From the NCBI GenBank assembly GCA_019244185.1, contig JAFATB010000006.1, positions 186,001 to 250,000 of the forward strand: a stretch of 64,000 nucleotides of DNA, read 5' to 3'. This DNA comes from Acidobacteriota bacterium. GTDB taxonomy: Bacteria; Acidobacteriota; Thermoanaerobaculia; Gp7-AA8. The translations under genes were made by a program, and so were the position numbers. Shown here one piece after another: positions 4,150 through 63,555 of this stretch (position 1 is the first letter of the stretch; every line of letters begins with the position of its first letter). The notes beneath the pieces were generated by a model. The model was not told the DNA's origin and did no database searches. It worked only from the letters and a program-made list of their open reading frames with translations.

Positions 4150-4158
4150 CAACCCAAG

Positions 4159-8914: not shown

Positions 8915-8984
8915 AGCACGCCTCCGCGAACAGTTTGTCGATGCCGACGAGCACCTGCCCGAGCAACCGCCGCGCGAGTGGCAC

Positions 8985-14594: not shown

Positions 14595-14697
14595 ACCAGT
14601 ACCCGATAACCTGCACCGGTGTGAGTTGGCCGCGTTCGGCCGCAACGTGCATTGTAGCGACGGCAATCTCTCGCGTTTTCAGATACCAAACCCAGGT

Positions 14698-14978
14698 CTA
14701 TCGGTGAAGATCATCAAGGATGATGACCGTCGAACGCCCACCGGTATTCATGAAACTGCCAAACTTCTTTTTCGCCCACCCCAGCGCCGATCCCGCAAAC
14801 GCTTTGAAATACCGAGCGTCGTGTTCTGGCACTGCTCGCCGACCGGATCGCGGCCATTAACCGGGTCGCCGCCCGCAAATGTGTAAGGCGTTGAAGAGTC
14901 TTGATAATTCGGATCCGGCGGCACGAATGTGCCGGTCAAGGAATCCAGCCACCGCTCCCTTGCAGACACGCTAGCCAC
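14698..14978 (-). pseudogene. orphan RHS core-tip junction fragment
   Basis: In minus sense the ORF reads ARERWLDSLTGTFVPPDPNY, then TPYTFAGGDPVNGRDPVGEQ, which is the conserved end of an RHS core. The intact giant gene has ARERWFDAGRGAFLSPDPLG and YTFAGGDPVNDRDPSGLQ at the same place. One frame further the homology continues (KAFAGSALGWAKKKFGSFMN, matching the giant's AWQWAKGAFVGFMNFGG), so an indel splits it near 14830. The fragment stops at 14698 without a recognisable toxin. It is a relic of an earlier RHS 3' end. Confidence 0.75.
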
Positions 14979-18050: not shown

Positions 18051-18521
18051 TTACTTAACGGTATTTTCGTCCCAGGCCGCGTTGAAAGCGCGATGCAGCA
18101 AAGGATCATCCGGCCCAGTAGGCAACCATCCGTCCCTGACGTCCGATGAATTGAACCACTGCCATACACGATGGCATTGCTCCTCATAATACTCGCCGAC
18201 AAGGGTCATCCAATCTGAAAATGCTTGGACTCGGGCGTACTCGGCGCTTGAGTCACCGCGCCAACCATCGGGCAGGTACTCGCGCAGAAACCTAGACAAG
18301 GTATCGACTGCGAATGCCCGCATGTCGTCTGACATTTCCGCTTCCTCTTTCAAGAGGAGCTTCAACTGAATCGGCGCCACGGAACTTGAGAGAACCTCAA
18401 TCATCTGATCGAAGGTTTCAGTTCGATGCGACCGAGCAAATTCTGTCGCGCTGCGGTATCCAAGTGCACGCACCCTCGACCGCAATCGTTCGTGCCAGTC
18501 GCCATCCCAAACGTTTGTCAT
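18051..18521 (-). CDS. candidate immunity protein for the RHS toxin tip
   Basis: A 156-residue soluble, acidic protein with no signal peptide. It looks alpha-helical (HERLRSRVRALGYRSATEFA, then LSRFLREYLPDGWRGDSSAE, then EYYEEQCHRVWQWFNSSD). The ATG at 18521 overlaps the TGA stop of the giant RHS gene (ATGA), so it is translated by coupling right after the toxin tip. A small unrelated cytosolic gene directly after an RHS tip is the defining position of an immunity gene; the protein would bind and neutralise the C-terminal nuclease-like domain in the producer's cytoplasm. I do not recognise its family from sequence. It is intact, unlike the small genes further downstream. Confidence 0.65.
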   Translation of the reverse strand: MTNVWDGDWHERLRSRVRALGYRSATEFARSHRTETFDQMIEVLSSSVAPIQLKLLLKEEAEMSDDMRAFAVDTLSRFLREYLPDGWRGDSSAEYARVQAFSDWMTLVGEYYEEQCHRVWQWFNSSDVRDGWLPTGPDDPLLHRAFNAAWDENTVK

Positions 18522-18890
18522 TGTCGAAATGGGACAAACGAGCCTGAAAGGCCATAGTCCCTCATCATTTGCTTGCCAACATCGAAAACTTCAGCAAACG
18601 TCAATGCCCGCCCAAGAAGCTTTTCGCGCTGCGAGATGCGGGACATGATCTGTCGATTCCATTCGCCTTCCCATTTGCGACCAAGGCGATAGTTCCCGCC
18701 TCCGTGAATGGCTTGATGAATCGCTTCGTCCAACTCCAGAGTAAACTGATCAATATCGCGACCCCCTGTGAAACCACGGACCTCAAAGAACGCTCGAAAT
18801 TCTTGAGGAAAAACATGGTGACGAGGATTGCGGACCACGCCGGCACCGCGCGCGCCAGTCTCAGTCACCGCATCCGATTCTGGGCCCTCC
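18518..18890 (-). other. toxin tip: HNH-like domain of DUF2380 / SitA-type appearance
   Basis: After a hydrophobic Gly/Ala linker the protein ends with ARGAGVVRNPRHHVFPQEFR, then DIDQFTLELDEAIHQAIHGG, then KWEGEWNRQIMSRI and VGKQMMRDYGLSGSFVPFR. The HH...F-P-Q-x-F start, the invariant H in the middle and the W-x-x-x-W block recall C-terminal domains of myxobacterial SitA-like toxins and DUF2380 proteins, thought to be nucleases. The match is from memory of the pattern. Confidence 0.55.
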
Positions 18891-21800
18891 CCCAAGGAAT
18901 CGTGCACTGAACTCGCGAGCACAATCGTCGAGACCATCGGGCCACTTCGTGCGCTACGCGCGATCACTCCCGCCGTGGGCAATACTACTCCCGAGCTTGT
19001 CGCAAGTGCCGGTGCAGGAGTTGTCGGCGTGTTCATCGCGGACACTGTCCCGCGCACAGCTGTATAGCCATCAAGCAACGCTGGTGCAGCCGCGCGTGCT
19101 ATGTCTTCTTTGCATCCACTGCTCGAAGCGGCGTCGATTGCCTTTACTCGCTTGTCAACCGCGCCTCCAATAACATATACTGGCGTACCTTCGCCACGTT
19201 CGACAGCCGCGATGGCAAGTGACAGGCTGCGTCGTTCCTGACGACGAGCGTCTGCGGCATTCTCATGCACCCATCCCCCATACCCGAATGTTAGGGTATC
19301 GATGAGTTTCACAGTTTGATCCCCACCAAAGTTCATGAATCCGACGAATGCACCCTTAGCCCATTGCCAAGCGCCCTCCCCTGCCGCTTGTAATGATGCA
19401 AGCGTTGTGTTCTTGCATGGCTTCTGCAGCCCTGAAGGGTCTCGATCATTTACGGGGTCGCCCCCAGCGAAGGTATAAAGGTTTGAAGCGTCGACGTACC
19501 CCAGCGGATCCGGCGACAGGAACGCCCCCCGCCCCGCATCAAACCAGCGCTCCCTCGCGAACACGAGTCCCGTCCCTACCTCCTCGAACGGCAAGGCCTG
19601 GAACGACGACATGAGGATGCTGCGACCCACTGCCGGCTCCGCTGGTGAGCCCAAGGCGGCGAGGGAGGGGGCGGCGTAGGGGGTGGTGGTGGGGTCGGGG
19701 GCGGCGAGGAAGGACGTGAGCGTCGCGAGGGACGCGCGGTATTCGACGGGGAGGGTGGGGGAGGTGTGGATGGGGTGGGCGGTGGTGGCCCAGGTCGGGG
19801 GCGGGAGGATGGGGGTGGCGGTGGACCACGCTTTGGCGCGGAGGGTGTTGGTGACGGCAATCGAGAGCGATTGGACGTCGCCGGTGGGGGACGTGAGCGC
19901 GGTCCACTGGGTGGGGGTGAGGGTCCAGTGGATGGTGTTGGGGTCGGAGAGCGTGGAGGTGACCGTCGCGGTGCGGACGACGTTGCCGCTCGCGGTCACG
20001 GCGGCGAGGCGGGTGCCGGTGGCGAGGGTGGCCTCGTCGAGGGCTTCGGTCGAGCGGATCGAGACCTCCACGGCCGTGAGGTTACCACTCGCGTCTTTGG
20101 TCTTGCTCAGCGTGATGCGATCGATGGCGGCGCCGGCGAGGCTGCTTTCTTCTTCGCCGTAGGCGCCGTCGACGACGGTGCGGGAGATGACTTTGCCGTC
20201 GTCGCCGAGGATGAGCTGGAGGTTGCCGTTGCCGGCTTCGTCGAAGACGGGGTAGAAGTGATGCACGTCGGGCGTCACGCCGTCGGTCACGGTCACCTCG
20301 AGCGGATCGTCGTAGGCGGCGTCGCCGTGGATGAGTTGGCGGAGAAGACCTCCGTTGGCGTCGACGGACGGGTTCGCGCTCGCGCCGGCTTTGTAGACGG
20401 AGACGAGACGGTCGGAGATCGGGTCCCACACGAACGTCGTCTCGGCGGGCAGGCCGTCGGCGAAGAGGACGGCGTCGCGGTTCTCGAGCTTCCAGTCGCT
20501 GTCGAGCGGCGGCATGGAGATGGAGCTCAGCTGCGCATACTCGACGCGGCGGCCGACGATGCGGTTGCTCGCGGCGTAGTCGTAGCGGAAGCGGCGGATG
20601 GTGAGTGACGGCGTCGGGATTTCGGTCGCGGTGATGATGCGGCCGCGGTCGTCGAACTCGTACTGATAGCGGCCATCACCCGTGCGCTCGGCGCCGATGT
20701 AGGTGAACGTGTGCGACTCGCCGTTCGCGGCCACGGTGCCGATGCGGTGTCCGGACAGCTCGTCGAAGTTGAGCGTCGGCGGCGCGGCCGGTTCGACGGA
20801 CGGCGACGGACGCTCGAGCTGCGTGCGGAAGCCGGCGTCGGTGACGTGCTCGATCGACGGATTGCTGCTGTCGTCGTGCGCGGTGACGGTCGTGAGCAGA
20901 CGGCTGCGCGCGTCGTAGGAGTACTCGTTGAAGCGTGTATCGGCGGAGATGCCGAGGAGCTGCTCGCGTTTGATCTGCACGCCGTCGTACGTGATGGCGG
21001 AGCCGCCGACGACGTTGCCGCCGGCGACGATGCGCAGCTCGGAGAGCTGTCCCGCGTTCGCGGTGTCGTAGGTGTACTGACGCTCGATGACGGCCGACGC
21101 GCTCGTCGTCAGCGTACGCACGTTGGGGCGGCCGGCATTGCGGTAGTCGGCGGTGAGCAGCGGCATCGGCGACGGCGCACCGATGAGCGTGCGCGTCATC
21201 GCGCTCACGTTGCCGGCGGCGTCGTGGCTCTCCCCTACCTTCTGCGTCCATTGCGTCGCGCTGGTGGGAAAGCCGCTGTAGGACGGCATCGTCCACGACT
21301 CGCGTTCGCCGTGCACGTTCCAGGTGTGATCCTGCTCATAGGAATCGAGCACGGTCGCCGAGCCGAAGCCGGAGTGATCCTTGAAGCGCGTCTGCTTCGT
21401 GCGGCGCGGGCGATCCTCGAAGTCGTAGTCCTCGAAGACGAGCGCGGCGTCGCGCGTGCGCCATGTGGTGATGCGGCCGGCGGCGTCGTAGTCGAGCTTC
21501 TCGATGAGCTCTCCGCCGTTGCGGCGGATCTCGGTGAGCTGGTTCTTGTCGTCGTAGGTGTAGTTGAAGAGGCGGCCTTGGCGGTCCTTCATCGACGCGA
21601 GGCGCGAGCCGTCGTAGGTCCAGGTCTCCTGCGTGCCGTCGGGATAACGGCGGACGCTCGGACGGCCGAGGAGATCGGACTCGGTCGTTTCGGTGAGGCC
21701 GGTGCCGGTGCCGCCGTCGGACTCGTCGCGATACGACGTGTCGGTGCCGGCGGCGTGATAGCCGTACTTCACTTCGGGGGCGCCCGGCTCGCGTTTCGAG

Positions 21801-24800
21801 AGCAGGTTGCCGCGCGCGTCGAAGTGCTGCCTCGTCGACTCGCGCGCGGGCGGCGCGTCGGCGGTGACGTTGCCGTCCTCGTCGTAGCTACGCTTCCACT
21901 CGAGCGCGCCGGCCTGGTTCCGCGTCGGATTGCCGAGCGTGTCGTAGTCGTACTGCATGTCGATCGGCGAGGTCGCGCCGCGCTCGGTGAGCGTGCCGTT
22001 CTTGACCATGCCGCCGGTGTAGTCGGAGGCGAGGTACTTCGAGAACTCGGTCGTGATGGTCGACGTCGTGCCGGCGCCGGCGATCGAGGACTTGAGGCGT
22101 CCCGCGTCGTCGAAGGCCTGCTTCGCGGCGCGTCCGCTGACGGCGGTCGACGTGATGCGGCCGGCGCCGTCCCACTTCATCTCGCTCTCGCGCGTTTGCG
22201 TCGCGTCGACTCTCGTCTGCGCCGACGTCATGCGGCCGTTCGGCGTGTAGCTCGCCTGCGACTCGCCGATGAGCGTGCCGACCGCGTCGTAGGTCTTGAT
22301 GCTCTTCGGGTTGCCCCAGTCGTCGTAGTCGGTGACGGTCTTCACGCCGTTCGGCGCGAGCGACGCGGTGGCGCGGCCGTGGACGTCGTAGGCGACGGCA
22401 CTCGCGCTGTGGTTGTCGGCCGAGTAGACGAGGTTGCCCGCGAGGTCGTACGCGTACTGTTCGACGATCGGCGTGCCGCCGGTGGTCGTGGTGCGCTTCG
22501 CGACGCGTCCGAGTCCGTCGAGTTCTTCGGTGACGACGGCGCCGCCGGGCAGCATGCGCACGATCTTGCGATTGGTGAGGTCGTAGTCGGTCGTGGTGGT
22601 GACGGAGGTGAGGCTCTCGCCCACCGCGACGTTGTTCGTCGTCGACTGCTTCACGCGACCGAGCGGGTCGTACGCGAGCGACGTGGTCACGGTGTGGGCG
22701 TCCTGCTTGTGCGTGGTCTCGGTGAGGCGTCCGTTGAGGTCGTACTTGGACGACTCTTCGAGCGAGAGCGACGGGCCGGTCGTCACGCTCGACACCGGAC
22801 GGCGCCAGCCGTCGAGGTTCGTGAGCGTCGAGACGCCGCGCTCCTCGTCGACCTTGATCTGATCCGGCCCCGGATACGCGAACTTCGTCTGCAGGCCGGA
22901 GGCATCGACGAGCTCCGGCATCGCGCGCGCGTACTCCGGCGCGGTGGCGTCGCGGAACTTGTAGCTGACCGATGCGTTGCCGCCGGCGTCGGTGCCGCCC
23001 GTGCTCGTGACGGTTTTCGGCTGGCCGTACGCGTCGACTTCGACCGTCGTCGTGATGGCGTCGTTCGTGGCCGCGACGCTCTTCTTCATCGCACTCGGCT
23101 CGGAGGTATGGATCGTGTCGCTGCCGATGCTGACGCTCTCGAGATACGCGGGACGCGGATTCGACGACGCGTCGTCGTAGCCGAAGGTCCGCTTGATCGG
23201 CGTCGCGCCGCTGCCGCTCGTTTCGCTGGTGAAGAGCACGAAGCCGGGCGCGCCAGGCTCAATCGATTTGTAGGTGTTCGTGGTCGTGCGGATCGTCGCG
23301 CTCGTGGCGCCAATGCCGGAAAGCGTCGCCGTCTCCAGCATGCCGTCGGGCACATACGTGAAGAGCATGCGCCGCGTCAGCGACTCGGTCGGCGCGCCGG
23401 ACGGCGTGACCGCGGCCGGCAACGTGCCGAACGGCGTCGTCACCGCGGCGACGTTCGTCTCATCGAGCTGCCTCACGTGCGCGCGGTCGGTGGTGTAGTT
23501 GCCCGGCTGCGGCGTGAGCTCGTAGACGCGCTCCTGGCCGAGAACGTCTTTGGTCGTGGTGTGCGTCGCGTCCGTGTAGGTGAACGTGGCCGACTCGCCG
23601 GTCTTCCACGTCTGCGTCTTCACCTTGTCGCGATCGCTGGTGCTGTACGCGAACGCGACGCGCGGACCCTCGCCCATCGGATCGGTGATGGACGTGAGGT
23701 TCGGCGCGAGCTCGAGCTTGTCGTTGTACGTCGATGCGGGCGTGCCGTAGCCGTATTGCGTAGTCGGACGTCCGGTGCCGGTCTCCGGCAGCGTCGCGGT
23801 GATGAGGCGGCCCGCGTCGTCGTAGTCGTAGTCGACGCGCCCGAGCCAGCTTTCGATCGACTGCAGGCGTCCCGCTTTCAGTCCCGTGCCATCGGGGAAG
23901 TACATGAGGCGCGACACGCGGCCGACCGGATCGATGACCTGCGCGAGGCGGCCGCTGAGATCGTAGAGATAGCGGACGACGTTGCCGGCGTCGAGCGCGT
24001 ACGCGTTCGGCGCGAACTCGTCGGTCTCGTGCACGAGGCGTCCCATCGAATCGAACGCGCTGATGCGCGCCTTCTGATCGACGAGCACCCAACCACGATC
24101 GGTGCGCGAGAGCTTGAGGAAGAGTCCCTTCGGACGCTGGTAGAAGCCGGTGGCGTTGTCGAGCGTGAAGCGCCAGATCTCGCCGGCGCCGTCGCGATAT
24201 TCGACGTCGCCGTTCGGCAGCGCGCGCAGGCGGCGGAAGATCGACGACTCCCACCCCATACCGACCGTGCCGCCGATCGTGCGCGAGCGATACGTGCGAT
24301 CGAACAGGGCGTTCCAGCCGTTGCGGCCGCCCGCATCCATGTCGAGCGCGGAGGTCTCGACTTCGCCCGAATGGAGATACGTCGTCTCCTGCAATGCGCC
24401 GCCGGCTACGGGAGGCGCCTGCGCGGCGACGAGCACGCTCGGCGGACGCACGGTGTCGGCCATGATGGTGGCAAAGCGCGCGGTGAAACGGTTCTCGCGT
24501 CCGAGGTAGGCGTAGCTCGTGCCGGTGAAGACGTTTTGCGCGCAGTCGGTGCCGGCGATGCAGAGATCGGGGCGGATCGAAATCAATCGGCCGTTCGTGT
24601 AGAGCTCCCACACGCGATCCGCTTCGGTCTTGCCGGCGAGATGCGGCGGGCGCGCACACGACGAGCAGCCGCTCGCGGTCTGCAGCGCGGCGAGCGTGGT
24701 GCCCGCGGGCGGCGTCGGCCACTGATAGTTGATGCTGGCGCGCGGATCGGCGATCGCGACGATCCACGGCGAGACGAACTTGTTGAAGCCTTTCTGATGG

Positions 24801-30800: not shown

Positions 30801-33800
30801 ACGTAGCCGTTGCCGCGTCCCGCGGTCGTGTCGGTGCTGTACGTGAACGTCTGCGTGTAGTCGGCGGTGAGCGAGGCGCCGCCCGCGTCCTTCACGCTCT
30901 TTTTGACGGTCAGGGTGATGTTCTTCGCGGGCAGCGAGGCGAAGGTGATGGTCGCAGTCTGGCCGCCGGTGTCGAGTGCAACGGTCCCGGTGAGCGCGCT
31001 CTCCCCTTCCGGCGTCACGAGCAGCGTGCCCGAGGGCGACGCGATCAGCGACGCGAGGTCCATCGGCTTCGAGAACTGGATGGCGAGCGTCTTCGCGTTG
31101 CGGTCGAGCGTGGCGCCGACGACCTGCAGCGTGGCGCAGCTGAGGCGATAGCAGAGCGCGCGCTCGGCGGAGAGGCTGCCGTCGGCGCCGAGCTCGCGCA
31201 CGCGCACGAGGTGATAGCCGGTCTGGCCAGAGAACGTAAGCGCGGCCTTGAACGCGCCGGTGTCGGAGGCCTGCGCGGTGAGCACGACGCCATCGACTTC
31301 GACGCGCGCCTGCGCGTTCGGCGAGACGCGGCCGGTGATCGTGGTGCCGCTGAAACAGCCGGTGGTCGTGGCCTCGTCGAGAATCGGCGCGTTCGACGGC
31401 GCGCTGCCGCCGGCGGTGAAGGCGAACGTGTACGGCGACGCGAGCGCGCCCCCGGCGACGTCGTGCAGCGATGAGGCGATGGTGGCGGTGTAGCGCACGC
31501 CGGCGCGCAGCGGCTGGTGCGGTGCGAACGTGATCGCGTCGCGATCGACGAAGACATCGCCGTCGACAGGGCCGTCGACGCTGCCGTCGGTGCTCGTCAG
31601 CTGGAACGCGTTCGCGGCGGTGGCGCCGTCGAGCGCGTGATTGAAGAGCACAACCAGCGCGACGCCGCGCTCGACGTCGGCGGCGTCGTTCGCGGGGAAC
31701 GACTCGCGCACGGCCAGCGGCTCGGCGAAGCGGATGACGCGCACGGCATCCGTCGCGTCGCGCGCGTCGGGCGCGGTGACGCGTGCAATCAGCGGGGTGA
31801 TGCCGGAGCTCGACGCCGAGAGCGTGACGTCGGCGGCGAAGGCGTTCGCCGTGAGGGTCGCGTTGACGCCGTTCACCTGCACGGCCGAGCCGGCGTCGCC
31901 GGTGAAGGTGCCGGCGACGCGCACGGCGCCGCTCTGCGTCGACGGCAGGTAGGTGTTGTCGCGCGGCGTGTCGATGGCGATCGACGGGCCGCCGGCGAGC
32001 TGGGTCACGTTCACGCGCGCGGTCGTCTGCGTGCCCGCGGCGTTGCGCGCGGTGGCTTCGATGACGGTGACGGCGGCGCTGGCGACCGGCACGCTCGCCG
32101 TGAACGTGCCGGTGGTGTCGGACTGCGGCGTCGCGGTGGCGGCGCGCGATGTGCCGCCGGCGCTGACCGTGATCGTCGCCGGCTCGACGTTCGCGTACGT
32201 GCCGGTGACGTCGATCGACGACGCCCCGCTGTCGCTGCCGGTGAGCGGCGCGGTGATGCTGAGTTGCGGCGCGGCGGTGAGCGCGCGCACGCGCGTGGTG
32301 GCGATGCCGACGCGCGCCGAGCGCGTCTTCGCGCGCACGGTGAGGACGCTGAGTCCTGGCGCGACGGGGACGTTCGGAACGCTGAACGAATGCGAATCCG
32401 CGCCGTCGTCGGCGACGGTGAATGCGATGCCGTTGACGTCACCGGAAACGACGCCCGCGCCGACGGTGCCGCTGACGGTGACGCTGCTGGTCGTCACGCT
32501 GCTGTTCGCGGCAGGCGACGCGATGGTCACGACCGGATCGTCGTAGCGATAGAGCACGAGCGTGACCGGCGCGTCCGTGGTCGGATTGCCCGACGCGTCG
32601 GCGCAGCGGATGGTGACTTCGTTGCGGCCCGGCGCGAGCGTGGCGTCGCCGCAGAACGAGCCGGCGGCGACGGCGGCCGCGAGGCCGTCGATCAGCACGC
32701 CCGCGGCGCCGCCGGAGCGGCCGCTGATGTGCACGTGCTCGCTGAAGACCGCGGCGCCGTCGGCGGGATCGAACTGCCCGAGGCCGCAGCCGGATACCGT
32801 GGCCGCATTGCCGATGAAGAAGACGCGATCGACGCGCGTCTCGTCGCCGGCCGCGTCGCGCGCGGTGGCGGTGAGCGCGTGGCCACCGTCGGCGAGCGGC
32901 GTGACGCCGGCGGCGACGAGGTCGCCGTCGACGCTGAGCGTGGTCACGAGGCCGTCGGGCTGGTTGTCGGTGACGTCGAGCGCGAGACTCGGCGAGGCGG
33001 CAAAATGCGCGCCGTCGGCGAGGTCGGCGCCGTTCGCGGTGACGCGCAGCACCGGCGGCGTGAAGTCGGCGGTGACGTGGACGGAGACGCTGCTCACCTG
33101 GCCGCGATCGTTCGTGAGCGACGCGGTGATCGTGTTTGCGCCTTCGACGAGCGGGAAATCATTCTTGCGGAACGCGCCGGCGGGATCGAGCGCGACGGTT
33201 GCGCCATTGATCGTGACGCCGCGCGCGGCGGCGGGCGTCAGCACCTGGCCGGCGACGAGCGTCGTCGGACGATTGGTCAACATCTTGTCGACCGGCGCGA
33301 AGAGCAGGAGCCCGTTGCCGCCGCTGTCGCGCACGACGTCGACGGAATCCGACGCGCTGTTGCCGGCAGCGTCGGCCGCGATAGCGACGATCGTGTTCGG
33401 ACCGGCGTCGAGCGGCACCGTCGCGCTGAACGCGCCGCCGGCCAGCGTCGCGGCGACGCCGTTCACGGTGACGCTGACGACGTCGTGGCCGCTGACCGTG
33501 CCCTGCACCTCGACGCGGTCGGCGTCGATCACCGCGTGATCGGCGGGAGTCGTGATGGTCACGACCGGCACGCTGCGATCGATGCGGAACGTGGCCGTGA
33601 CCGTCGCGGACTCGTGGCCGAACGCATCCTTCGCCTTCGCCGTCAGCGTGTAGTCGCCGTCGTTCGTCACTTCGCTTCCCGACGTGAACGGCGCGCCGTT
33701 CAGCGTGGCCGCGATCGTGGCCGCGGAATCGTTCGAACGAATGACGGGCGTGACCGCGCGGCGGTAGACCTGATGCGGCGGGATCGGCAATCCGTTCTCG

Positions 33801-36800
33801 ACGATCTCGACGGACGGCGCCGCGCCGCGGATGGTCAACGTGTAGACCATTCGCGACTGGTTGCCCGCCGCGTCGATCGCGAGGAGCGCGAGCGTGTTCA
33901 GCCCTTCCTGCAGCGCGACCGGCAGCGTGAAGTGCACGCCGTCGACCTGCGCGGTCTGGCCCGTCGATTCGATGACCACGGCGGCCGGCTCGCTCAGCGT
34001 GCCGGTCAGCGACGCCGGCTTCTCGCCGACGGTGGCGTTGTTCGCGGGATCGATCGACGTGATGAACGGCGGCGTGCGGTCGATCGTGAAGGCGACCACC
34101 TTCTCGTCGGAGACGTGGCCCGCGCAGTCGCGCGCCGTCGCGCGCAGCACGTGCGGCGCGGGGAGCTCGTTCGCGATCGCGGTGCCGGAGACGTACGGCT
34201 GGCCGTCGAGCGTGACCGTCAGCGCGGCGCCGGCTTCGTTCGCGCGGACGTCGAGCGCGATCGGCCGGTTCACCACCGGCGCGGCGAACGGCGCGCCGCC
34301 TTCACGCACTTCGACGACGGGCTTCGTGCGATCGATGGAGATCGCGACCGTGGCCGCGGCGGTGTGCCCGGCGAGGTCGACCGCCTCGACGCGGATCGTG
34401 AATTTTCCTTCGTCCGGCGCGGGAATCGTCGCCGTGAACGTGCGGTGGTCGTCGCCGACCGTCGCGTTGACGACCGCCGTTCCCATCGTCACCTTCACGC
34501 TCGCCAGCGACACCTCGGATACCTGCCCGCGCACTTCCACCGCGTTCGTATCGAGGCACGCGTTCGCGGACGGCGCCTCGATCGTCACCGCCGGCGCGAG
34601 CGTGTCGAGCGTCACCGGAATGGCGATGGTCGTGTTGTTGCCGGCGCGGTCGAAGCCGATGGCCTCGATCGTGTTCTCGCCTTCGAGCAGCTCGAGCTCG
34701 ACCGGCGTCGTGAACTTGCGATCGGCGATGGTGGCGTCGATGCCGTTGACTTCGATGCCGATCGCGTCGTCCGCGTCGCCGCTGACGAGGATGCGCGGCG
34801 TGGTGAGGCTCGTGTTCGCGAGCGGGCTCGTGATCGCGATCGCCGGCGGCGTCTTGTCGATGGTGAACGTCACCGGCGGCACATCCGTCGAGAGACCGAC
34901 GCGGTCGGTCACCCTCACTTTCAACGTGTACGTGCCTTCGGCCGTGACCGGCGTCTCCAGCGTGTACGGCTGATCGTTGAGCGTGGCCGTCGTCGTCGTA
35001 TCCGTGGTGTCGGTGATGACCGCGCGCGGCACGACGTCGCGGTTGAAGAACTGGCCGTCGGTCAGCTCCTTTTCGCCTTCCATGAGCGTGACCACCGGCG
35101 CGGTGCGATCGATGTAGAAGACGATCGCGGGGATGGTCGTACTCCACGCCAGCTCGTCGGTGACCGTCGCGGTGAGCGAGTACTTTCCTTCCGCGGTGAT
35201 GTCACCGCCGAACGTGAACGGCTGTTCGTTGAGCAGCGCGGTCGTGGTCGTCGGCGTCGTGTCGCTGACGGTGAGCTCGGGGTGGACGTTGCGGTTGAAC
35301 GCGCCGCCGGCGAACGGCTGGCCGTTCTCCGTCACCGTCACGACCGGCGCGGTCTTGTCGATGGTGAAGGTGATCGGCGGAACGACGGTTGCGTGCCCGA
35401 GGTGATCGGTGACGGTGATCGCGAGGACGTGATCCGCGAGCTCGGTGGAGATGGTGCTGTCGGGCGTCCACGGCGCGTTGTCAAGCGTCGCCGTCGTGGT
35501 CGTGGCGGTGAGGTCGTCGATGTCGAGCTTCGGCTCGACGTCGCGATTGAACTTGCCGCCGGTGAACGCCACGCCGTGCTCGAGCACGTGCACGACCGGC
35601 GCGGACTTGTCGATGATGAACGTGATCGGCGGGAGCGTGGTCGTCCAGTGCGCGGCGTCGGTCACCGAGACCGCGAGGACGTGCTCGCGCTCGTCCGCGA
35701 TCGGCGTCCCGCTCGTCCACGGCGCGCCGTCGAGCGTCGCTTCGACCGTCGTCGCGCTGATGTCGTCGACGGCGATGATCGGCGCGATCGTGTCGCCGAA
35801 CTCGTCGCTGGTCGCGAGCACGCGGTCGCCCACCTTCACGCTGACCGCGGGCGGCGTCGTGTCGACCACGAAGTGCACGGTGGGAACGGTCGTCGACCAG
35901 TTCGCGGCGTCCGTTACCTTGATATCCAACGAATGCGCGCCGTCGCCGGCGATGGGCGTGCCGAGGATGTAGGAGTTGCCGTCGAGCTTCGCGTCGATCG
36001 TGTACGCGGTGAGATCGGAGACCGCGACCTGCGGCAGCGCGGGATGCGCGAGCAGCGCGCCGCTCACGAACGGCGTACCGTTCTCCGTGAGCGTTACGAC
36101 CGGCGGCGTCTTGTCGACGGTGAAGACGATCGGCGGCACGTTCGTGACGAACCCGAGCTCGTCGGTGGCCTTGATGACGAGCACGTGGCGATCTTCGCGC
36201 GTGACCGTCGTCTCCGACGTGAACGGTGCGTCGTCCAGCGTGGCCTCGATCGTGACGTGCGTGGTGTCGTTCGACTCGATCTTCGGCGTAACGTCGCGGT
36301 TGAAGATCGTGTCCGACACGAGCGGCGCGCCTGACTCGGTCACGGTGACGACCGGCGCCGATTTGTCGATCGTGAACGCGATCGGCGGCACCACCGTCAC
36401 CCACCCCAGCTCATCCGTCACCGTCACATTCAGCGTGTAGACGCCCTCGGAGGAGATCTCCTGTCCCGAGGTCCACGGCGTTTCGTGCTGGCCGTCGCTG
36501 AGCGTGGCGTTGGTGATCGTCTCGGTGAGATCGTCGATGCGAACGAGCGGCGTGACGGAGCGCTTGAACTTGCCGCCGGTGAACGGCTGATCGGCGTCGT
36601 CGAGGTGCTCGACGACGTGCACGACCGGCGCGGTCTTGTCGATGACGAAGTGGATTGGCTCGAGCGCGCGCTCGTTGCCGACGTCGTCCTTCACGTGCAC
36701 GACGAGCGTGTAGCGCGCGTCGGCCTCGATGGCCGTGCCGCGCGTGTACGGCTGGTCGTTGAGCGTGAGCGTGTACGTGGTCTCGGTGAGGTCGTCGGCC

Positions 36801-39800
36801 GTGATCTCCGGCGTGATCGCGGCCTTGAACTTCGCGCCGTCCTCGAGGTCTTCGCCGTCGACGCGCACGTGCACGTCGGGCGCGGTCTTGTCGAGCACGA
36901 ACGTGAACGGACCGACGCTCTTGGTGAGCCCGCCCGCGTCCGTCGCCGTCGCGGAGATCGTGTGCACCTTCTCTTCGCTGACGACGCGGCCCGGCGGCAG
37001 CTCGTGATTGTCGAGCAGCACGACGACGTCCGGCGGCTTGCTGAGGTTGTCGTCGGCTTCCGTCGACGGCGTGATGTCGCCCGCGAACTTGAAGCTGTTG
37101 TCGACGAACTCTTTTCCGGGCGCGGCGAAGAGACGCAGCGTCGGCGGCGTGCGGTCGATCGTGAAGTCGGCTTCGACGGTCGTCGACAAACCGGCGAGGT
37201 TCGTGACGACGACTTTCAGGTGATGCTTACCTTCCGGCACGTACGGCGTGTCGAGCACGTACGCCTGGCCGTCGATGGTGGCGGTCTTCGTCGTCTCCGT
37301 TGCGGCGACGACGTGCACGCCGGCGACGACGTCGCGCGTGAACGTTTTGCCCACCGGGAACGGTTGCCCGCTCTCGAGCAGCGACACCTCGGGGGCGTTC
37401 TTGTCGAGATGGAACAGGATCTCGGGCGACGTGGACGTGTTGCCGGCCGCATCGCGCGCGTCGACGACGATCTTGTGGCTGCCGTTCGTCGTGTACAGCT
37501 GGCCGAGGACGTACGGGGCGCCGTCGATGTGCGCGGTGAGCTCGTACGGCGTGATGTCTTCCGCGCTCGCGTTGAGCGCGATATCGCGCGCGAACGACGC
37601 GCCTTCGAGGAGCGGCGTCGTGCCTTCGAACACGGAGATCTTCGGCGGCGTCTGGTCGACGATGAACGTCGCGGAGACGGTGGTCGTCCACTGCAGCTCG
37701 TCGGTCACTTTCACGACCAGCGTGTGCGTGCCTTCCGCGGACACCGGCAGCGACAGCGAGAACGGCCTGTCGTCGAGTGTGGCCTCGGTCGTCCACTGGC
37801 TCGTGTCGCTGACATTGGCGACGACGGTGACGTCGTGCGCGAAGATCGCGCCGGTCGCCGGCAGCGGCTGGCCGTTCGCGACGAGACCGACGACCGGCGG
37901 CTCGGTGTCGACGAGGAGATCGAGCTTCCCGTCGGTGGCGTTGCCGAGCGCGTCGACAGCGTGCACGGTGATGGAGTGCGCGCCTTGCGGCACCGGCGTC
38001 TTCGCCACGTACGGCTGCGTGCCGTCGAGCGTCGCCGTGAACGTGACGGCGGAGAGCGCGTCGGTGACCTGCAGGTCGATCGACGGGACGCGGTTGAAGT
38101 CGCGGCGCACGCTCGTGTCGAGCACGGCGTTGCTCTCGAGGAACTTCACCAGCGGCCCGGTCTTGTCGACGAGCACGCGCACTTCGGCGTCGGTCGTGTT
38201 GTCCGCGCGATCGGTCGCGTGCACGGCGACGACGTGCGGTCCGTCCGTCGCGATCGCGGCGCCGGACGTGTAGTCGGTGCCGTCGAGCTTCGCCGTGTAC
38301 GCGACGCCGGGCAGGTTGTCGGTGACGCTGATGACGACGTGCGCGTCGCGGCCGAACGGCGTCTGCACGTTCGTGTCGAGCGCGGTGCCCGACTCGGAGA
38401 ACGCGATCGCGGGCTTCGTCTTGTCGACGAGCAGAGTCAGCGTCGCGTCAGCGGTGTTGCCCGCGGCGTCAATCGCGTGCACCACGAGCGCGTGCTCGCC
38501 TTCCGCAACGATGTTCGTGTTCGTCGTGTACGGCGCGCCGTCGAGCGTGGCGGTGAAGGTCGCGGACGAGACGGCATCCGTCGCGCGCACGTCGATGGCG
38601 ACGTCGCGGCGGAACTTCTGCAGGTCGCGCGGATCGAGCTTCGTCGCGCCGTCGTAGAACGCGATCACCGGCGCGCTCTTGTCGACGAGTAGCGAGAGCG
38701 TGACGTCGGTGACGTTCCCCGCCTCGTCCGTCGCGTGTACTTTCAGCGCGTGCGTTCCCTCGGCCGTAATCGTCGCGAGCGAGGTGTACGCGGCGCCGTC
38801 GAGCGTGGCTGCCGACTGCACCTGTGTCGTCGCGTCGCTGGCGAGAATCTCGACCGCGGCATCGCGCGCGAACTTTGCCGTCTGCGCGGGATCGAGCGTC
38901 GTGCCCGACTCGCGCAGCACGACCACCGGCGCGACTTTGTCGACGAGCACGTCGAGCGTGGCCGTGGCCGGGTTGCCCGCCTCATCGACCGCATTGACGA
39001 CGATCTTGTGCCACCCCTCCGTCGGGATCGGATCGAGCGAGCGCCACGCGTGGCCGTCGAGCGTGGCCGTGTACGTCGGCGTCGACTGCGCGTCGGTGAG
39101 CCGCACCTCGATGGCCGGATCGATCTTGAACTTCGCGATCGGATCGAGCTTCACGCCCGCCGCGTAGAACGCGATCGTGGGCGCGCCGAGGTCGACGAGG
39201 ATCGTGGCCTGGACGGTGCGGCGGTTGCGCACGCCGTCGAGCGCGTCGACGACAAGGTAGTGCGTCCCTTCCTGCGCGATCGGCGTCTTCGCGACGTACG
39301 GGTGCCCGTCGAGCGTGGCGGTGTACGTCGTCGCGGTCCAGGCGTCCGTTACCTGGATATCAATCGATGGCGGCCGGTTGAATTTCGAATTCGGCAGCGG
39401 CAGCGGCGTGCCCGATTCCGTGAGCGTGACGACCGGCTGCGACTTGTCGACGAGCACCTTCACTTCGCTCTCGACGGCGTTGCCGGCGCGATCGACCGCG
39501 CGCGCGTGAATCGTGTGCAGCCCTTCCGCGGCGATCGGCGTGAGCGGCGTGTACGGAGCGCCGTCGACGGTGGCGGTCAGCGTGGCTACGCCCGACGCGT
39601 CGTCGGTTGCGCGCACGTCGACGCGCGCGTCGTGATCGAGCGCGGTGGTGGTGTTCGGCTGGAGCTGGACGCTTCCTTCGAAGAACGAGATCGCCGGCGC
39701 GGTGTGATCGACCGGCGACTTCGCGGAGAGGTCGTCGACGTACGCGTCGCCTTTCACCGCCGACCAGATGCCGATGCGGCCGCTCTTGAGGCGCGTTGCC

Positions 39801-40447
39801 GCGGCGTCGGTGGCGTCGATCGAGAACGTCGACGGCTCGGTCGTGCCGTCGGCCCAGAAGCGCGCGCGGATGTTCGTCGCGCTGCCGGTGTCGTCGACCT
39901 GGATGAAGAAGCGATACCACGTGTTCGTGGCGGGCGTGAACGCGCTGTCGGTGCGGTTCGCGAGCGTGCCCGCGCCGAAGCCGAAGAGCTGCATCGTCAG
40001 CGTCGGGCCGCCGTTCTGCGACCACAATCCGAGGAGGTAGTACGAGTCTTTCTCCGGATACGAGGAGAGGAACGTGAAGCCGATGCGCGTGTCGCTGCTC
40101 GTGCGGATGAAGCGGCCGCGGTATTCGAAGCGGCCGTTCGTGCTGAAGGTCCTGGTCTGGAGCGTGGAGAACGTGCCGATGCGCGGGTTGTTGCCTTCCG
40201 GTTTGCCGGACGACTGCTTCGTGCCGAAGACGATGTTCGAGCCGTGGTTGCCCTGCGTAGGATCGGGCCAGGTCTTGTACAAGCCGTTGGCCGACGGATG
40301 CGAGCTGCCGATCGACGTGTCGACCCAGCCGTCGGGATTGCGCGGCGAGCCGTAGCTCTGGAAATCGTCGGAGTACGAGACTTCCGTCTGCTGCGCGAAG
40401 AGCGCAGGACAGACGAGGAGAAACGCGAAGAGAACGAGCTTACGCAT
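18518..40447 (-). CDS. giant Sec-secreted RHS/YD-repeat protein with Ig-like stalk and HNH-like toxin tip
   Basis: 7309 residues. A signal peptide (LVLFAFLLVCPALFAQQ) is followed by a LamG-like domain (~20-240), about 25 tandem Ig-like repeats of 70-85 residues (~245-2300), further Ig and SbsA-type Big_5 domains (~2915-3015 and ~3820-3930), a carboxypeptidase-regulatory-like domain (GYVSGAVYDATNGRPLAGAQ, ~3205), a propeller-like region (~4480-5090), then an RHS/YD shell (~5350-6960) ending RERWFDAGRGAFLSPDP. The last ~350 residues are linker plus tip, with HHVFPQEFRAFFEVRGF and ALTFEVFDVGKQMM-like end motifs. The shell would encapsulate the tip, as in RHS, TcC and WapA proteins. There is no PAAR or VgrG-binding N-terminus, so export is by Sec, not T6SS. 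AGGA precedes the ATG. It lies 48 bp downstream of the other giant gene and is coupled to the immunity gene. Confidence 0.92.
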   Translation of the reverse strand: MRKLVLFAFLLVCPALFAQQTEVSYSDDFQSYGSPRNPDGWVDTSIGSSHPSANGLYKTWPDPTQGNHGSNIVFGTKQSSGKPEGNNPRIGTFSTLQTRTFSTNGRFEYRGRFIRTSSDTRIGFTFLSSYPEKDSYYLLGLWSQNGGPTLTMQLFGFGAGTLANRTDSAFTPATNTWYRFFIQVDDTGSATNIRARFWADGTTEPSTFSIDATDAAATRLKSGRIGIWSAVKGDAYVDDLSAKSPVDHTAPAISFFEGSVQLQPNTTTALDHDARVDVRATDDASGVATLTATVDGAPYTPLTPIAAEGLHTIHARAVDRAGNAVESEVKVLVDKSQPVVTLTESGTPLPLPNSKFNRPPSIDIQVTDAWTATTYTATLDGHPYVAKTPIAQEGTHYLVVDALDGVRNRRTVQATILVDLGAPTIAFYAAGVKLDPIAKFKIDPAIEVRLTDAQSTPTYTATLDGHAWRSLDPIPTEGWHKIVVNAVDEAGNPATATLDVLVDKVAPVVVLRESGTTLDPAQTAKFARDAAVEILASDATTQVQSAATLDGAAYTSLATITAEGTHALKVHATDEAGNVTDVTLSLLVDKSAPVIAFYDGATKLDPRDLQKFRRDVAIDVRATDAVSSATFTATLDGAPYTTNTNIVAEGEHALVVHAIDAAGNTADATLTLLVDKTKPAIAFSESGTALDTNVQTPFGRDAHVVISVTDNLPGVAYTAKLDGTDYTSGAAIATDGPHVVAVHATDRADNTTDAEVRVLVDKTGPLVKFLESNAVLDTSVRRDFNRVPSIDLQVTDALSAVTFTATLDGTQPYVAKTPVPQGAHSITVHAVDALGNATDGKLDLLVDTEPPVVGLVANGQPLPATGAIFAHDVTVVANVSDTSQWTTEATLDDRPFSLSLPVSAEGTHTLVVKVTDELQWTTTVSATFIVDQTPPKISVFEGTTPLLEGASFARDIALNASAEDITPYELTAHIDGAPYVLGQLYTTNGSHKIVVDARDAAGNTSTSPEILFHLDKNAPEVSLLESGQPFPVGKTFTRDVVAGVHVVAATETTKTATIDGQAYVLDTPYVPEGKHHLKVVVTNLAGLSTTVEADFTIDRTPPTLRLFAAPGKEFVDNSFKFAGDITPSTEADDNLSKPPDVVVLLDNHELPPGRVVSEEKVHTISATATDAGGLTKSVGPFTFVLDKTAPDVHVRVDGEDLEDGAKFKAAITPEITADDLTETTYTLTLNDQPYTRGTAIEADARYTLVVHVKDDVGNERALEPIHFVIDKTAPVVHVVEHLDDADQPFTGGKFKRSVTPLVRIDDLTETITNATLSDGQHETPWTSGQEISSEGVYTLNVTVTDELGWVTVVPPIAFTIDKSAPVVTVTESGAPLVSDTIFNRDVTPKIESNDTTHVTIEATLDDAPFTSETTVTREDRHVLVIKATDELGFVTNVPPIVFTVDKTPPVVTLTENGTPFVSGALLAHPALPQVAVSDLTAYTIDAKLDGNSYILGTPIAGDGAHSLDIKVTDAANWSTTVPTVHFVVDTTPPAVSVKVGDRVLATSDEFGDTIAPIIAVDDISATTVEATLDGAPWTSGTPIADEREHVLAVSVTDAAHWTTTLPPITFIIDKSAPVVHVLEHGVAFTGGKFNRDVEPKLDIDDLTATTTTATLDNAPWTPDSTISTELADHVLAITVTDHLGHATVVPPITFTIDKTAPVVTVTENGQPFAGGAFNRNVHPELTVSDTTPTTTTALLNEQPFTFGGDITAEGKYSLTATVTDELAWSTTIPAIVFYIDRTAPVVTLMEGEKELTDGQFFNRDVVPRAVITDTTDTTTTATLNDQPYTLETPVTAEGTYTLKVRVTDRVGLSTDVPPVTFTIDKTPPAIAITSPLANTSLTTPRILVSGDADDAIGIEVNGIDATIADRKFTTPVELELLEGENTIEAIGFDRAGNNTTIAIPVTLDTLAPAVTIEAPSANACLDTNAVEVRGQVSEVSLASVKVTMGTAVVNATVGDDHRTFTATIPAPDEGKFTIRVEAVDLAGHTAAATVAISIDRTKPVVEVREGGAPFAAPVVNRPIALDVRANEAGAALTVTLDGQPYVSGTAIANELPAPHVLRATARDCAGHVSDEKVVAFTIDRTPPFITSIDPANNATVGEKPASLTGTLSEPAAVVIESTGQTAQVDGVHFTLPVALQEGLNTLALLAIDAAGNQSRMVYTLTIRGAAPSVEIVENGLPIPPHQVYRRAVTPVIRSNDSAATIAATLNGAPFTSGSEVTNDGDYTLTAKAKDAFGHESATVTATFRIDRSVPVVTITTPADHAVIDADRVEVQGTVSGHDVVSVTVNGVAATLAGGAFSATVPLDAGPNTIVAIAADAAGNSASDSVDVVRDSGGNGLLLFAPVDKMLTNRPTTLVAGQVLTPAAARGVTINGATVALDPAGAFRKNDFPLVEGANTITASLTNDRGQVSSVSVHVTADFTPPVLRVTANGADLADGAHFAASPSLALDVTDNQPDGLVTTLSVDGDLVAAGVTPLADGGHALTATARDAAGDETRVDRVFFIGNAATVSGCGLGQFDPADGAAVFSEHVHISGRSGGAAGVLIDGLAAAVAAGSFCGDATLAPGRNEVTIRCADASGNPTTDAPVTLVLYRYDDPVVTIASPAANSSVTTSSVTVSGTVGAGVVSGDVNGIAFTVADDGADSHSFSVPNVPVAPGLSVLTVRAKTRSARVGIATTRVRALTAAPQLSITAPLTGSDSGASSIDVTGTYANVEPATITVSAGGTSRAATATPQSDTTGTFTASVPVASAAVTVIEATARNAAGTQTTARVNVTQLAGGPSIAIDTPRDNTYLPSTQSGAVRVAGTFTGDAGSAVQVNGVNATLTANAFAADVTLSASSSGITPLIARVTAPDARDATDAVRVIRFAEPLAVRESFPANDAADVERGVALVVLFNHALDGATAANAFQLTSTDGSVDGPVDGDVFVDRDAITFAPHQPLRAGVRYTATIASSLHDVAGGALASPYTFAFTAGGSAPSNAPILDEATTTGCFSGTTITGRVSPNAQARVEVDGVVLTAQASDTGAFKAALTFSGQTGYHLVRVRELGADGSLSAERALCYRLSCATLQVVGATLDRNAKTLAIQFSKPMDLASLIASPSGTLLVTPEGESALTGTVALDTGGQTATITFASLPAKNITLTVKKSVKDAGGASLTADYTQTFTYSTDTTAGRGNGYVSGAVYDATNGRPLAGAQLEIAAVNTLTTSDRGRYSYALPEGAYTVRAGAPGYTTVWRQVVVPAGAGVVPIDIRLTKGGDEKQANNAALTLQHGADTAVTKRVELALAVTSLAGTHRVRLTSVGGQSLAGLLPLGWAPLASAEIAIDDASSPIALPGARLTFVVDANAITAAAQSLALVHYDSGADEWRVVVPAANVGSDGRASFDIDAAGNYALVYADKNSSLVARAGAALTGVANPCLTTPDTCRLTGRSFTLNPNAVLPSGRTVATLTTDGAKPYPSGTAVQAFIDEQLNLADGRTLVDPPFATDLLIYRNLAGTDGVADFHLAPTAQAQAVILRDGVDHIRIVDYPGRIDRGTLLGADGGRVPGDGNVLLDVPAAATPEPLHASVTSLSDNELASLGAVPGFRVAAGFTFSLTRANEPPPTDGVAIHAPALLTPARVTIAVPSASANAQVIVAEVLPSTPFGVLFRVVALMSASSSSTSNVFVSRPIVSTQLPLDGVVRDGRYVVLVADAPIAYAFGTVRSAGGAAVANARVTSGIGAPMSSVLGVRDLTRIDGVFVIPVAAKPAAPFSLVARTAALGDGAASAFTGSPDPDTFVDFGALTLSAQPPHLTAIAPADGAELDVTAPLVVQATFDTSIDAASVANGIRVTNLTTNAPLAGTVSLGGANSVRFNATDPLRAASTYAIAVLPTIRSTTGTPFGQTSTSTFSTRATPSNATIHADRIHITIPDANGKSRISGTAGALPGGAQAVAVRRNHFFVVTYDATVAADGSFAFDAGHLDARDRISVDDIIDLQVLDPVSHAIIAILRLTPFITDDGRGFLAPADLDTKYTTPDGLTVSVPAGAFDKATMVTLTPSQQTAFAAVPHFDDELRYANSLELKFDGVANKRLDVELPVPAGTDTANRNFLLGYLGLSVRGPRVMIVDSVRVDNGRFVTADATSGTQQTTQKRAVTSNAVLTGSALRNYLLGVNRSGVYSVLDIRVPDGSSVAWGAMTGLQAGYDLFWDTLQSLYAAHFYLAERRGTIAIPVLTNKPFQVVGVDAATGLQGFAKVYDPIPNGDPGAAAILPNPNPDREGPYPVYGTPFRVETLDLIASDTPVSIRNFVVKLEGDSITAVDSSTPLPADLQVTLFNVTNGAIDRKRSDGLKVAGALGDRVLLLVEEKEVDPYTSLSVVFSEPIAVGSDASDDAIDAYLRTRFSVEIAKEPAAAAPVYTAVTEQAHFRVDSGGRRVLVDLPASLQRGMRYRLGIASTVEDQSGLRIGQILGESGPTAPLAEPVYLYFRVREPGGLVSSFDLTKGAIRDQALNGNVLLMTALDGGVVAYDVADPASLGASTQPIGVAAGGGDEYWALASDRHGRVYATALSGLFGIVRSFRLEDFLPNGTPGPRAVTGKAGAIVSWRVGSTVGLDLASATILSDRAEALPRKMQILLQDDTEDLTLAFDPTADADDLSVFNVQQAMSEGYPYRLQRITVENETLDMRWSADAHPGVPAAINGIVARKNDRIHVIRNQRTYGVISLFGYGVAVFDLNAVESNDDPTRPANYKPLREQIRATNAALRSECGDPIDTYAIPDLTLSPDATIITRDGSPDLDIFAVDQRRGILDLKIAPPANDAEAAAPSDADTCGERAQFGLVLRNTYFTPGDPPATNVHDHPRLVPFRAKFAEAAGRQPTPRFTGAAYYHWTLEAQDNKALSGTSVTGAPPRGQRGSTAGTRVVRDYMLVPGYEYGLLVVEIGGTPPTMVPSYDPLANAHLVDIIWIPGGAAAVRAIPRTNLATVVDGEGRVLLVDLSRIDERFDSTGNLLPANALFKTVAASLASTATYGSGTYGVGADDPRIVWKSAPGVTSGTLAPVVDADTGYVYVGKVLEKTTSVIAAIDPRVQLKADVGDGNGLAEVGGLVPLGVDPPAGVIKGPEGSLAAFRVEVSLPGAMTQSLSGGANKLVAAIESERVFGATTEQMPEGFPRAHLRLKDRSGAPDPRADANFYLERVVPDSMAAQLRHQKGFNKFVSPWIVAIADPRASINYQWPTPPAGTTLAALQTASGCSSCARPPHLAGKTEADRVWELYTNGRLISIRPDLCIAGTDCAQNVFTGTSYAYLGRENRFTARFATIMADTVRPPSVLVAAQAPPVAGGALQETTYLHSGEVETSALDMDAGGRNGWNALFDRTYRSRTIGGTVGMGWESSIFRRLRALPNGDVEYRDGAGEIWRFTLDNATGFYQRPKGLFLKLSRTDRGWVLVDQKARISAFDSMGRLVHETDEFAPNAYALDAGNVVRYLYDLSGRLAQVIDPVGRVSRLMYFPDGTGLKAGRLQSIESWLGRVDYDYDDAGRLITATLPETGTGRPTTQYGYGTPASTYNDKLELAPNLTSITDPMGEGPRVAFAYSTSDRDKVKTQTWKTGESATFTYTDATHTTTKDVLGQERVYELTPQPGNYTTDRAHVRQLDETNVAAVTTPFGTLPAAVTPSGAPTESLTRRMLFTYVPDGMLETATLSGIGATSATIRTTTNTYKSIEPGAPGFVLFTSETSGSGATPIKRTFGYDDASSNPRPAYLESVSIGSDTIHTSEPSAMKKSVAATNDAITTTVEVDAYGQPKTVTSTGGTDAGGNASVSYKFRDATAPEYARAMPELVDASGLQTKFAYPGPDQIKVDEERGVSTLTNLDGWRRPVSSVTTGPSLSLEESSKYDLNGRLTETTHKQDAHTVTTSLAYDPLGRVKQSTTNNVAVGESLTSVTTTTDYDLTNRKIVRMLPGGAVVTEELDGLGRVAKRTTTTGGTPIVEQYAYDLAGNLVYSADNHSASAVAYDVHGRATASLAPNGVKTVTDYDDWGNPKSIKTYDAVGTLIGESQASYTPNGRMTSAQTRVDATQTRESEMKWDGAGRITSTAVSGRAAKQAFDDAGRLKSSIAGAGTTSTITTEFSKYLASDYTGGMVKNGTLTERGATSPIDMQYDYDTLGNPTRNQAGALEWKRSYDEDGNVTADAPPARESTRQHFDARGNLLSKREPGAPEVKYGYHAAGTDTSYRDESDGGTGTGLTETTESDLLGRPSVRRYPDGTQETWTYDGSRLASMKDRQGRLFNYTYDDKNQLTEIRRNGGELIEKLDYDAAGRITTWRTRDAALVFEDYDFEDRPRRTKQTRFKDHSGFGSATVLDSYEQDHTWNVHGERESWTMPSYSGFPTSATQWTQKVGESHDAAGNVSAMTRTLIGAPSPMPLLTADYRNAGRPNVRTLTTSASAVIERQYTYDTANAGQLSELRIVAGGNVVGGSAITYDGVQIKREQLLGISADTRFNEYSYDARSRLLTTVTAHDDSSNPSIEHVTDAGFRTQLERPSPSVEPAAPPTLNFDELSGHRIGTVAANGESHTFTYIGAERTGDGRYQYEFDDRGRIITATEIPTPSLTIRRFRYDYAASNRIVGRRVEYAQLSSISMPPLDSDWKLENRDAVLFADGLPAETTFVWDPISDRLVSVYKAGASANPSVDANGGLLRQLIHGDAAYDDPLEVTVTDGVTPDVHHFYPVFDEAGNGNLQLILGDDGKVISRTVVDGAYGEEESSLAGAAIDRITLSKTKDASGNLTAVEVSIRSTEALDEATLATGTRLAAVTASGNVVRTATVTSTLSDPNTIHWTLTPTQWTALTSPTGDVQSLSIAVTNTLRAKAWSTATPILPPPTWATTAHPIHTSPTLPVEYRASLATLTSFLAAPDPTTTPYAAPSLAALGSPAEPAVGRSILMSSFQALPFEEVGTGLVFARERWFDAGRGAFLSPDPLGYVDASNLYTFAGGDPVNDRDPSGLQKPCKNTTLASLQAAGEGAWQWAKGAFVGFMNFGGDQTVKLIDTLTFGYGGWVHENAADARRQERRSLSLAIAAVERGEGTPVYVIGGAVDKRVKAIDAASSSGCKEDIARAAAPALLDGYTAVRGTVSAMNTPTTPAPALATSSGVVLPTAGVIARSARSGPMVSTIVLASSVHDSLGEGPESDAVTETGARGAGVVRNPRHHVFPQEFRAFFEVRGFTGGRDIDQFTLELDEAIHQAIHGGGNYRLGRKWEGEWNRQIMSRISQREKLLGRALTFAEVFDVGKQMMRDYGLSGSFVPFRQ
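19560..24400 (-). other. RHS/YD-repeat shell of the giant toxin
   Basis: Dozens of YD-type units (YLYDLSGRLAQVIDPVGRVS, YAYDLAGNLVYSADNHSAS) run from about residue 5350 to the core-end motif RERWFDAGRGAFLSPDPLGY. This is about 1600 residues, long enough to build a closed cocoon around the tip. The part at 22193-23323 is duplicated at 15567-16693. Confidence 0.9.
33000..39720 (-). repeat. about 25 tandem Ig-like repeats (stalk) in the RHS giant
   Basis: Each repeat begins near (V/I)DKTAPVV, has a TLDGxPYT hairpin, and ends near VxATDxxGN or VKVTDELG. I counted about 25 boundaries between residues ~245 and ~2500. At DNA level the repeats are similar but not identical. They would form a long rigid stalk holding the RHS shell away from the cell. 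Confidence 0.85.
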
Positions 40448-63307: not shown

Positions 63308-63348
63308 GGATTGTCTCTCTCTCTTGGTTGGACCCTTGTGAGCCGCGC

Positions 63349-63377
63349 AGGATAGACGATTCCCCGGAAGTCCGCAA
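63349..63377 (-). promoter_or_regulatory. possible promoter of the giant-protein operon
   Basis: On the minus strand TTGCGG (63377-63372) and TATCCT (63354-63349) are separated by exactly 17 bp, ending about 40 bp before GTG 63307. The -35 matches the consensus weakly, the -10 moderately. If real, it drives a transcript of more than 45 kb. The rest of 63308-63555 shows no other feature. Confidence 0.4.
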
Positions 63378-63555
63378 CGGCTTTTTTCGGTAAATGCAAC
63401 GATTGCCATTGTGCAAAACGCGACGCGTCCACAGTCAAACAGCAGCCGAAATCAGGCTTCTATCGCGTAAGACGCGTGACGACGATGCGGCGGCCGCGAC
63501 TCCAATCGTGACGCACCTCCTTGACCGCATCCCCGCGCGCTGCTAAAGAACAGCC

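Follow-up and report, generated by a model that had tools for sequence, protein, structure and literature searches.

The locus

The window, by which we mean the whole 64,000-nt stretch of Acidobacteriota DNA that was analysed, carries an intact open reading frame whose product, protein A, is 7,309 residues long (Table 1). Read from its N-terminus, A consists of a signal peptide, a globular domain, an array of Ig-like units, a Big_5 domain, a transthyretin-like domain, a conserved core, an RHS/YD shell, and a tip. An earlier note on this DNA had recognised the signal peptide, the Ig array, the RHS shell, and an HNH-like tip, all of which are borne out by sequence inspection, profile searches, and Foldseek; the gene for a second giant, protein B, and a displaced cassette downstream of A had escaped it.

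Table 1. Features of the window (residue numbers refer to protein A unless stated otherwise)
Feature	Position in window	Strand	Basis
Protein A, 7,309 aa, predicted Sec-exported giant RHS polymorphic toxin	18518..40447	-	ORF; Pfam/TIGR profiles
Predicted Sec/SPI-type signal peptide without lipobox, residues 1-19	40391..40447	-	sequence; hydropathy scan
N-terminal globular domain, residues 20-245	39713..40390	-	comparison with homologues
Ig-like stalk, 27 units of ~84 aa, residues 246-2814	32006..39712	-	custom HMM; Pfam Big_13/Glucodextran_B
Big_5 Ig-like domain, residues 2909-3011	31415..31723	-	Pfam
Carboxypeptidase-regulatory (transthyretin-like) domain, residues 3216-3278	30614..30802	-	Pfam 1.9e-4, below gathering score
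Conserved core, residues 3300-5360	24368..30550	-	profile search of relatives; structure prediction
RHS/YD shell, residues 5361-7007, DUF6531 at start, RHS core at end	19427..24367	-	Pfam/TIGR/PDB profiles; Foldseek
Autoprotease motif, R6967, D6980 (DPLG), D7003 (DPSG)	19439..19549	-	motif read; homologue comparison
Polymorphic tip, residues 7008-7309; predicted SitA6/DUF2380-type nuclease at 7208-7304	18521..19426	-	profiles; GC
Candidate immunity protein, 156 aa	18051..18521	-	ATGA overlap with A (4 bp)
Shell fragment, displaced; DNA 96.2% identical to the part of the A gene at 22191-23318	15567..16691	-	DNA comparison
Remnant of RHS core and pre-toxin region, displaced; 54% and 39% identical in aa to A 6962-7094	14602..14970	-	aa comparison
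Protein B, 7,310 aa, putative giant exported partner	40496..62428	-	48 bp upstream of A; Pfam
B N-terminal region, ~950 aa, conserved	59429..62368	-	comparison with relatives
Protein C, small, probably secreted, ~260 aa after likely later start	62450..63409	-	conservation upstream of B

The signal peptide of A reads MRKLVLFAFLLVCPALFA, with cleavage before QQ. By hydropathy scan it is of the cleavable Sec type that characterises Sec/T2SS-exported RHS toxins, and a Sec-type signal with no lipobox is likewise seen in 16/16 homologues with a readable N-terminus (17 proteins in all). No lipid or cell-wall anchor was found in A. The compact domain that follows opens with a stretch, DDFQSYG..P.GW, common to several homologues, and has no Pfam or PDB match; the LamG-like identity once suggested for it is supported by neither database and was dropped.

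With a custom profile built on the repeats of A itself, 27 Ig-like units are found, of which about 25 score strongly, so that the previous count of about 25 was right. In Pfam, the stalk matches Big_13 (E=7.8e-70) and Glucodextran_B (E=3.2e-68) far above chance level. OmpL47 “beta-barrel” hits represent Ig-type repeats, and we do not read them as evidence of a barrel. An Ig domain is roughly 4 nm long, and the 27 units, if extended, could span about 100 nm. We infer, as the earlier note did, that the stalk plausibly serves as a reach device; among homologues the custom profile detects anything from 0 to 28 units, though some of these proteins are truncated where a contig stops, and the profile misses divergent units.

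Conserved core and RHS shell

The conserved core contains a second Big_5 domain (residues 3824-3927), followed by a low-confidence region of mixed Ig/FN3-like and beta-propeller-like character. Structure prediction, which had been proposed as a check, gave a mean pLDDT of 52 for residues 4172-5360, with Foldseek matches mostly at TM <=0.1 over the query, and mixed Ig/FN3-like and propeller-like strands are all that we conclude there, at low confidence. Immediately ahead of the shell, at residues 5260-5267 (window about 24647-24670), lies the sequence GCSSCARP, in which the G, the P, and the two C are the same in all aligned homologues of the family and order.

The shell itself is recognised by RHS_repeat (Pfam, 1.5e-21) and by the RHS core model TIGR03696 (1e-10), and the spacing of its autoprotease residues matches that described for teneurin-like and RHS proteins (PMC13018210). 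The motif is retained, with small substitutions, in 11/11 homologues examined; A thus combines YD/RHS repeats with an RHS core bearing a DPxG autoprotease, as RHS polymorphic toxins do. In the structural model, residues 6130-6520 form a regular strand ladder at a pLDDT of mostly 70-90, and Foldseek gives nothing but Rhs, teneurin-like, Tc, or teneurin shells among the top 40 matches. As a whole the model is not closed (mean pLDDT 50, TM <0.2 over the query), and the predicted YD-shell fold is supported locally, not globally.

Might A instead be a diverged bacterial teneurin-like protein? Such proteins, described in 2026, comprise BIG, TTR, TIP, FN-plug, and NHL modules, a YD shell, a variable toxin, and an immunity gene, and they occur in Acidobacteriota too (PMC13018210). 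The order of the recognisable parts of A is the same, from BIG repeats and a TTR-like N-terminal module through a YD shell with a DPxG autoprotease to a polymorphic tip and a downstream ORF (a candidate immunity gene in A), and the shell profile matches the solved teneurin-like protein (9ifo/9pt5) at 1e-20 and teneurins at ~1e-10. However, the C-terminal half of the shell lies closer to T6SS Rhs shells, its best PDB matches (up to 2e-40), and the FN-plug and NHL modules that should directly precede a teneurin-like YD shell are not recognisable in A: the pre-shell region has no PDB match to those of teneurin-like proteins or teneurins even at E=10, and its fold model is too poor to decide the matter. 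Teneurin-3 ranks fifth in the fold search with the middle region at a TM of 0.07, which is not evidence. The earlier label “teneurin-like” therefore holds for domain order and not for sequence homology to FN-plug/NHL, and we regard membership of this group as unlikely.

The tip, its candidate immunity gene, and displaced pieces

The last ~100 residues of A match DUF2380 (1.2e-9, 38.3 bits against a gathering score of 26.3) and, under the strict cut-off of that model, TIGR02269/SitA6 (6e-7, positions 120-185 of 209). Together with an HNH/AHH-like pattern, HHVFPQE...HQAIH, these matches predict a SitA6/DUF2380-type HNH/AHH nuclease. The 156-residue protein encoded next has no family match in Pfam or TIGR, and PADLOC returned nothing for it or for the tip; its position, typical of immunity genes, makes it the likely immunity gene.

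Homologues of A residues 3300-5349 were found in 41/148 related genomes, and those named are Acidobacteriota. Identity between A and its homologues is 56-62% before the second DPxG motif and at alignment background just after it; at the same shell/tip border, GC content drops from 0.68-0.72 in the shell region to 0.56 in the tip. The homologues end instead in a Tle1-like phospholipase (6.5e-35), an XOO_2897-type deaminase (2.5e-18), a Tle3-like lipase (5e-5), or, in several further cases, a tip of no known family, and their bodies align although the tips are unrelated. A SitA6-type tip is seen in only one of the 148 relatives, namely the genome to which this window belongs. Many homologues have a small ORF directly behind them, often with an overlap. 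With a variable C-terminal toxin domain on a conserved body, A is, as judged from these predicted proteins, a polymorphic toxin whose homologues retain the body with unrelated tips.

Broken rhs pieces lie downstream of A. Compared one piece at a time, they consist of a stretch of 1,130 bp from the shell gene and a diverged RHS-core/pre-toxin remnant, which are the displaced-cassette signature of RHS toxins. An IS1-like transposase, read from translation in two overlapping frames (window 13012-13963, + strand), adjoins these pieces. Farther along, at 541-2336 and 3283-4152 (- strand), are candidate anti-phage genes, including an RmrA-like HTH/ImmA-type protein (2e-66), a weak RmrT, and an AbiEi-like protein (1e-18), and at 4755-9007 (- strand) a HEAT-repeat protein and a weak STAND/NACHT-type NTPase are encoded in overlapping ORFs, giving the surroundings a defence-like character.

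A putative giant partner, protein B

Behind a Sec-type signal, protein B has seven CarboxypepD_reg domains, Ig-like (Big) domains, and an LVIVD propeller, and it ends in two F5/8C domains. Its N-terminal ~950 residues are conserved (29-56% identity) and have no informative match in Pfam or the PDB. Apart from one weak local match, B is not homologous to A; that the two are nearly equal in length (7,309 and 7,310 aa) is probably coincidence. Upstream of B, protein C is conserved in eight loci examined, all within the family or order.

B occurs in 46/148 genomes and in 39/41 of those with A (Fisher p=4e-26, a value that ignores genome kinship). In seven genomes it lies directly upstream of A, often at less than 50 bp or overlapping; it is within about 1.2 kb of A in another genome and at both copies in G081, and three more genomes carry the two genes on the same contig. 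In one genome a masked stretch separates A and B on a single contig, and the exceptions are two genomes in which the genes are on different contigs and are not adjacent where visible. On one contig of G081 (C25), an A-type ORF of 4,819 aa stops ahead of the shell and is overlapped by a second exported giant of 2,791 aa, a possible two-chain version. In a phylum-wide sample, B was present in 44/396 genomes. In other classes it may stand alone (three genomes) or precede another giant, some of these having YD repeats (two genomes). B thus goes back further than A or is spread more broadly.

This distribution bears on a second alternative, in which A and B serve mainly as adhesins or as part of the matrix, the RHS end with its tip being an accessory or a tag for self-recognition rather than a weapon. 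In its favour, both arrays of Ig units and the F5/8C discoidin domains and propellers are modules of the adhesion type, and B, besides being the more widespread of the two, can do without A. Yet the homologue tips belong to known toxin enzyme families, several with an adjacent immunity-type gene, and we judge this reading slightly less probable again than the teneurin-like one. A further counterpoint, possible in principle, to seeing a weapon here is an RHS core that has no toxin activity.

Export route

T6SS-delivered Rhs effectors have a PAAR or VgrG domain or an EagR chaperone. A contains no PAAR or VgrG domain, the window has no PAAR or chaperone gene, and EagR (PF08786) was not found in the genome. 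The search for T6SS genes that the earlier note had proposed did locate a T6SS cluster at 120-143 kb of the contig that carries A, about 61 kb away and unlinked to it, with VipA at 125.6 kb, Hcp- and VgrG-like ORFs seen in translation, and, at 143 kb, the genome's only PAAR gene, a separate 157-aa ORF. Genomes with A do have a T6SS somewhat more often (Fisher p=0.002), yet just 12/41 of them encode VipA; the 29/41 that lack it include three genomes that are 99-100% complete. Since most genomes with A do not have VipA, the T6SS is not needed for the A family.

The signals and the lack of VipA in most of these genomes therefore support Sec export of A rather than T6SS delivery, and with it the main line of the earlier note, a predicted Sec-exported, stalked RHS toxin in a diderm. 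That note had named a PAAR-like fold, a linked T6SS chaperone gene, or the lack of a predicted YD-shell fold as evidence against its view; none of these was encountered. That A is cargo of the genome's own T6SS, with an incidental hydrophobic segment at its N-terminus, is a possible counterpoint, in favour of which are the T6SS genes on the same contig and the Tle1/Tle3-type tips of some homologues, but A's own make-up, the complete genomes without VipA, and a classical cleavable-type signal on every readable N-terminus make it very improbable.

RHS proteins at four other loci of this genome also begin with Sec-type signals, so RHS proteins with Sec-type signals are a lineage habit and not a singular event. 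At one of these loci (contig C2, 309000-328000), two RHS proteins of ~1,910 aa, each of the Sec type, are encoded in tandem and differ in their tips. Elsewhere (contig C7, 3000-19000), a 2,100-aa RHS protein with an SpvB/TcB-like start has, by eye, no signal peptide.

Proposed mechanism and significance

We propose for A the role of an RHS polymorphic toxin, exported by Sec and displayed on the surface or in the matrix, that Acidobacteriota would direct against neighbouring, probably related, bacteria, and we put the probability of this reading at roughly two in three. The nuclease tip would be enclosed by the shell and released by cuts at D6980 and D7003, while the stalk and protein B would keep the shell at a distance from the cell. 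On contact, the tip would enter the neighbour, and cells having the cognate 156-aa protein would survive. On this reading, the tip has been swapped through recombination at the shell/tip border, and a displaced rhs 3' fragment has stayed behind downstream.

More tentatively, and as something we would at present bet against, B and A might form a dedicated two-giant surface weapon of Acidobacteriota, B, with its unclassified N-terminal region of ~950 residues, being the conserved anchor or export partner and A the exchangeable arm of stalk, shell, and toxin. It is an equally speculative part of this idea that delivery would be contact-dependent and distinct from T5SS, T6SS, outer-membrane exchange, and known teneurin-like proteins.

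For surface-displayed RHS and teneurin-like toxins, the delivery machine is not known (PMC13018210). A Sec-RHS family co-inherited across a class with a conserved giant partner offers a concrete candidate for the missing delivery piece, and stalks of 0 to 28 detected units offer a natural series for the study of reach. The A/B pair would also account for some of the giant genes that these soil bacteria carry. The conserved partner B is the unexpected part and the one most worth following.

Comparison with known systems

WapA of Gram-positives is a Sec-exported RHS toxin with an immunity gene. A resembles it in that general sense, which is as far as the earlier description “WapA-like” carries: A differs by its diderm host and Ig stalk, no Gram-positive cell-wall-binding N-terminus was found in it, and the hosts of its homologues are Acidobacteriota. 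The likeness to CdiA, a long stalk with an interchangeable C-terminal toxin, is one of analogy; A has no match to a TPS domain or FHA repeats, and there is no CdiB or barrel partner among the neighbouring proteins scanned in the window.

The SitA6 toxins of Myxococcus bear AHH nucleases (PMC8546572), and the C-terminal nuclease of these myxobacterial proteins (TIGR02269/PF09533) is homologous to the tip of A (profile positions 100-183 of 187). Unlike them, A is a non-lipoprotein with neither lipobox nor escort domain and carries the nuclease on an RHS body. Membership of A in the SitA group was rejected because the match is limited to the toxin domain.

The closest precedents are the Sec/T2SS-exported RHS toxins tabulated in 2012, some of them with N-terminal laminin-G anchors (Zhang et al., PMC3482391), so that the singularity of a Sec-exported RHS protein in a diderm had been overstated. 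Like A, these toxins combine a signal peptide, an N-terminal anchoring or adhesion module, RHS repeats, a C-terminal HNH-type toxin, and an immunity gene (a candidate in A). A differs from them in its extreme size, its ~27-unit Ig stalk, its conserved core (residues 3300-5360), and its co-inherited giant partner. From the teneurin-like proteins it is set apart, beyond the missing sequence match to FN-plug and NHL, by an SPI-type signal where theirs is SPII, by a far longer stalk, and again by protein B. We therefore place A, on its predicted features, among the Sec-exported RHS polymorphic toxins, as a probable member whose architecture is a new variant, and outside the teneurin-like proteins. 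No description of a giant RHS/partner pair in Acidobacteriota was found in the open-access literature: the type of toxin is known, and the build of A and its pairing with a second giant appear to be undescribed.
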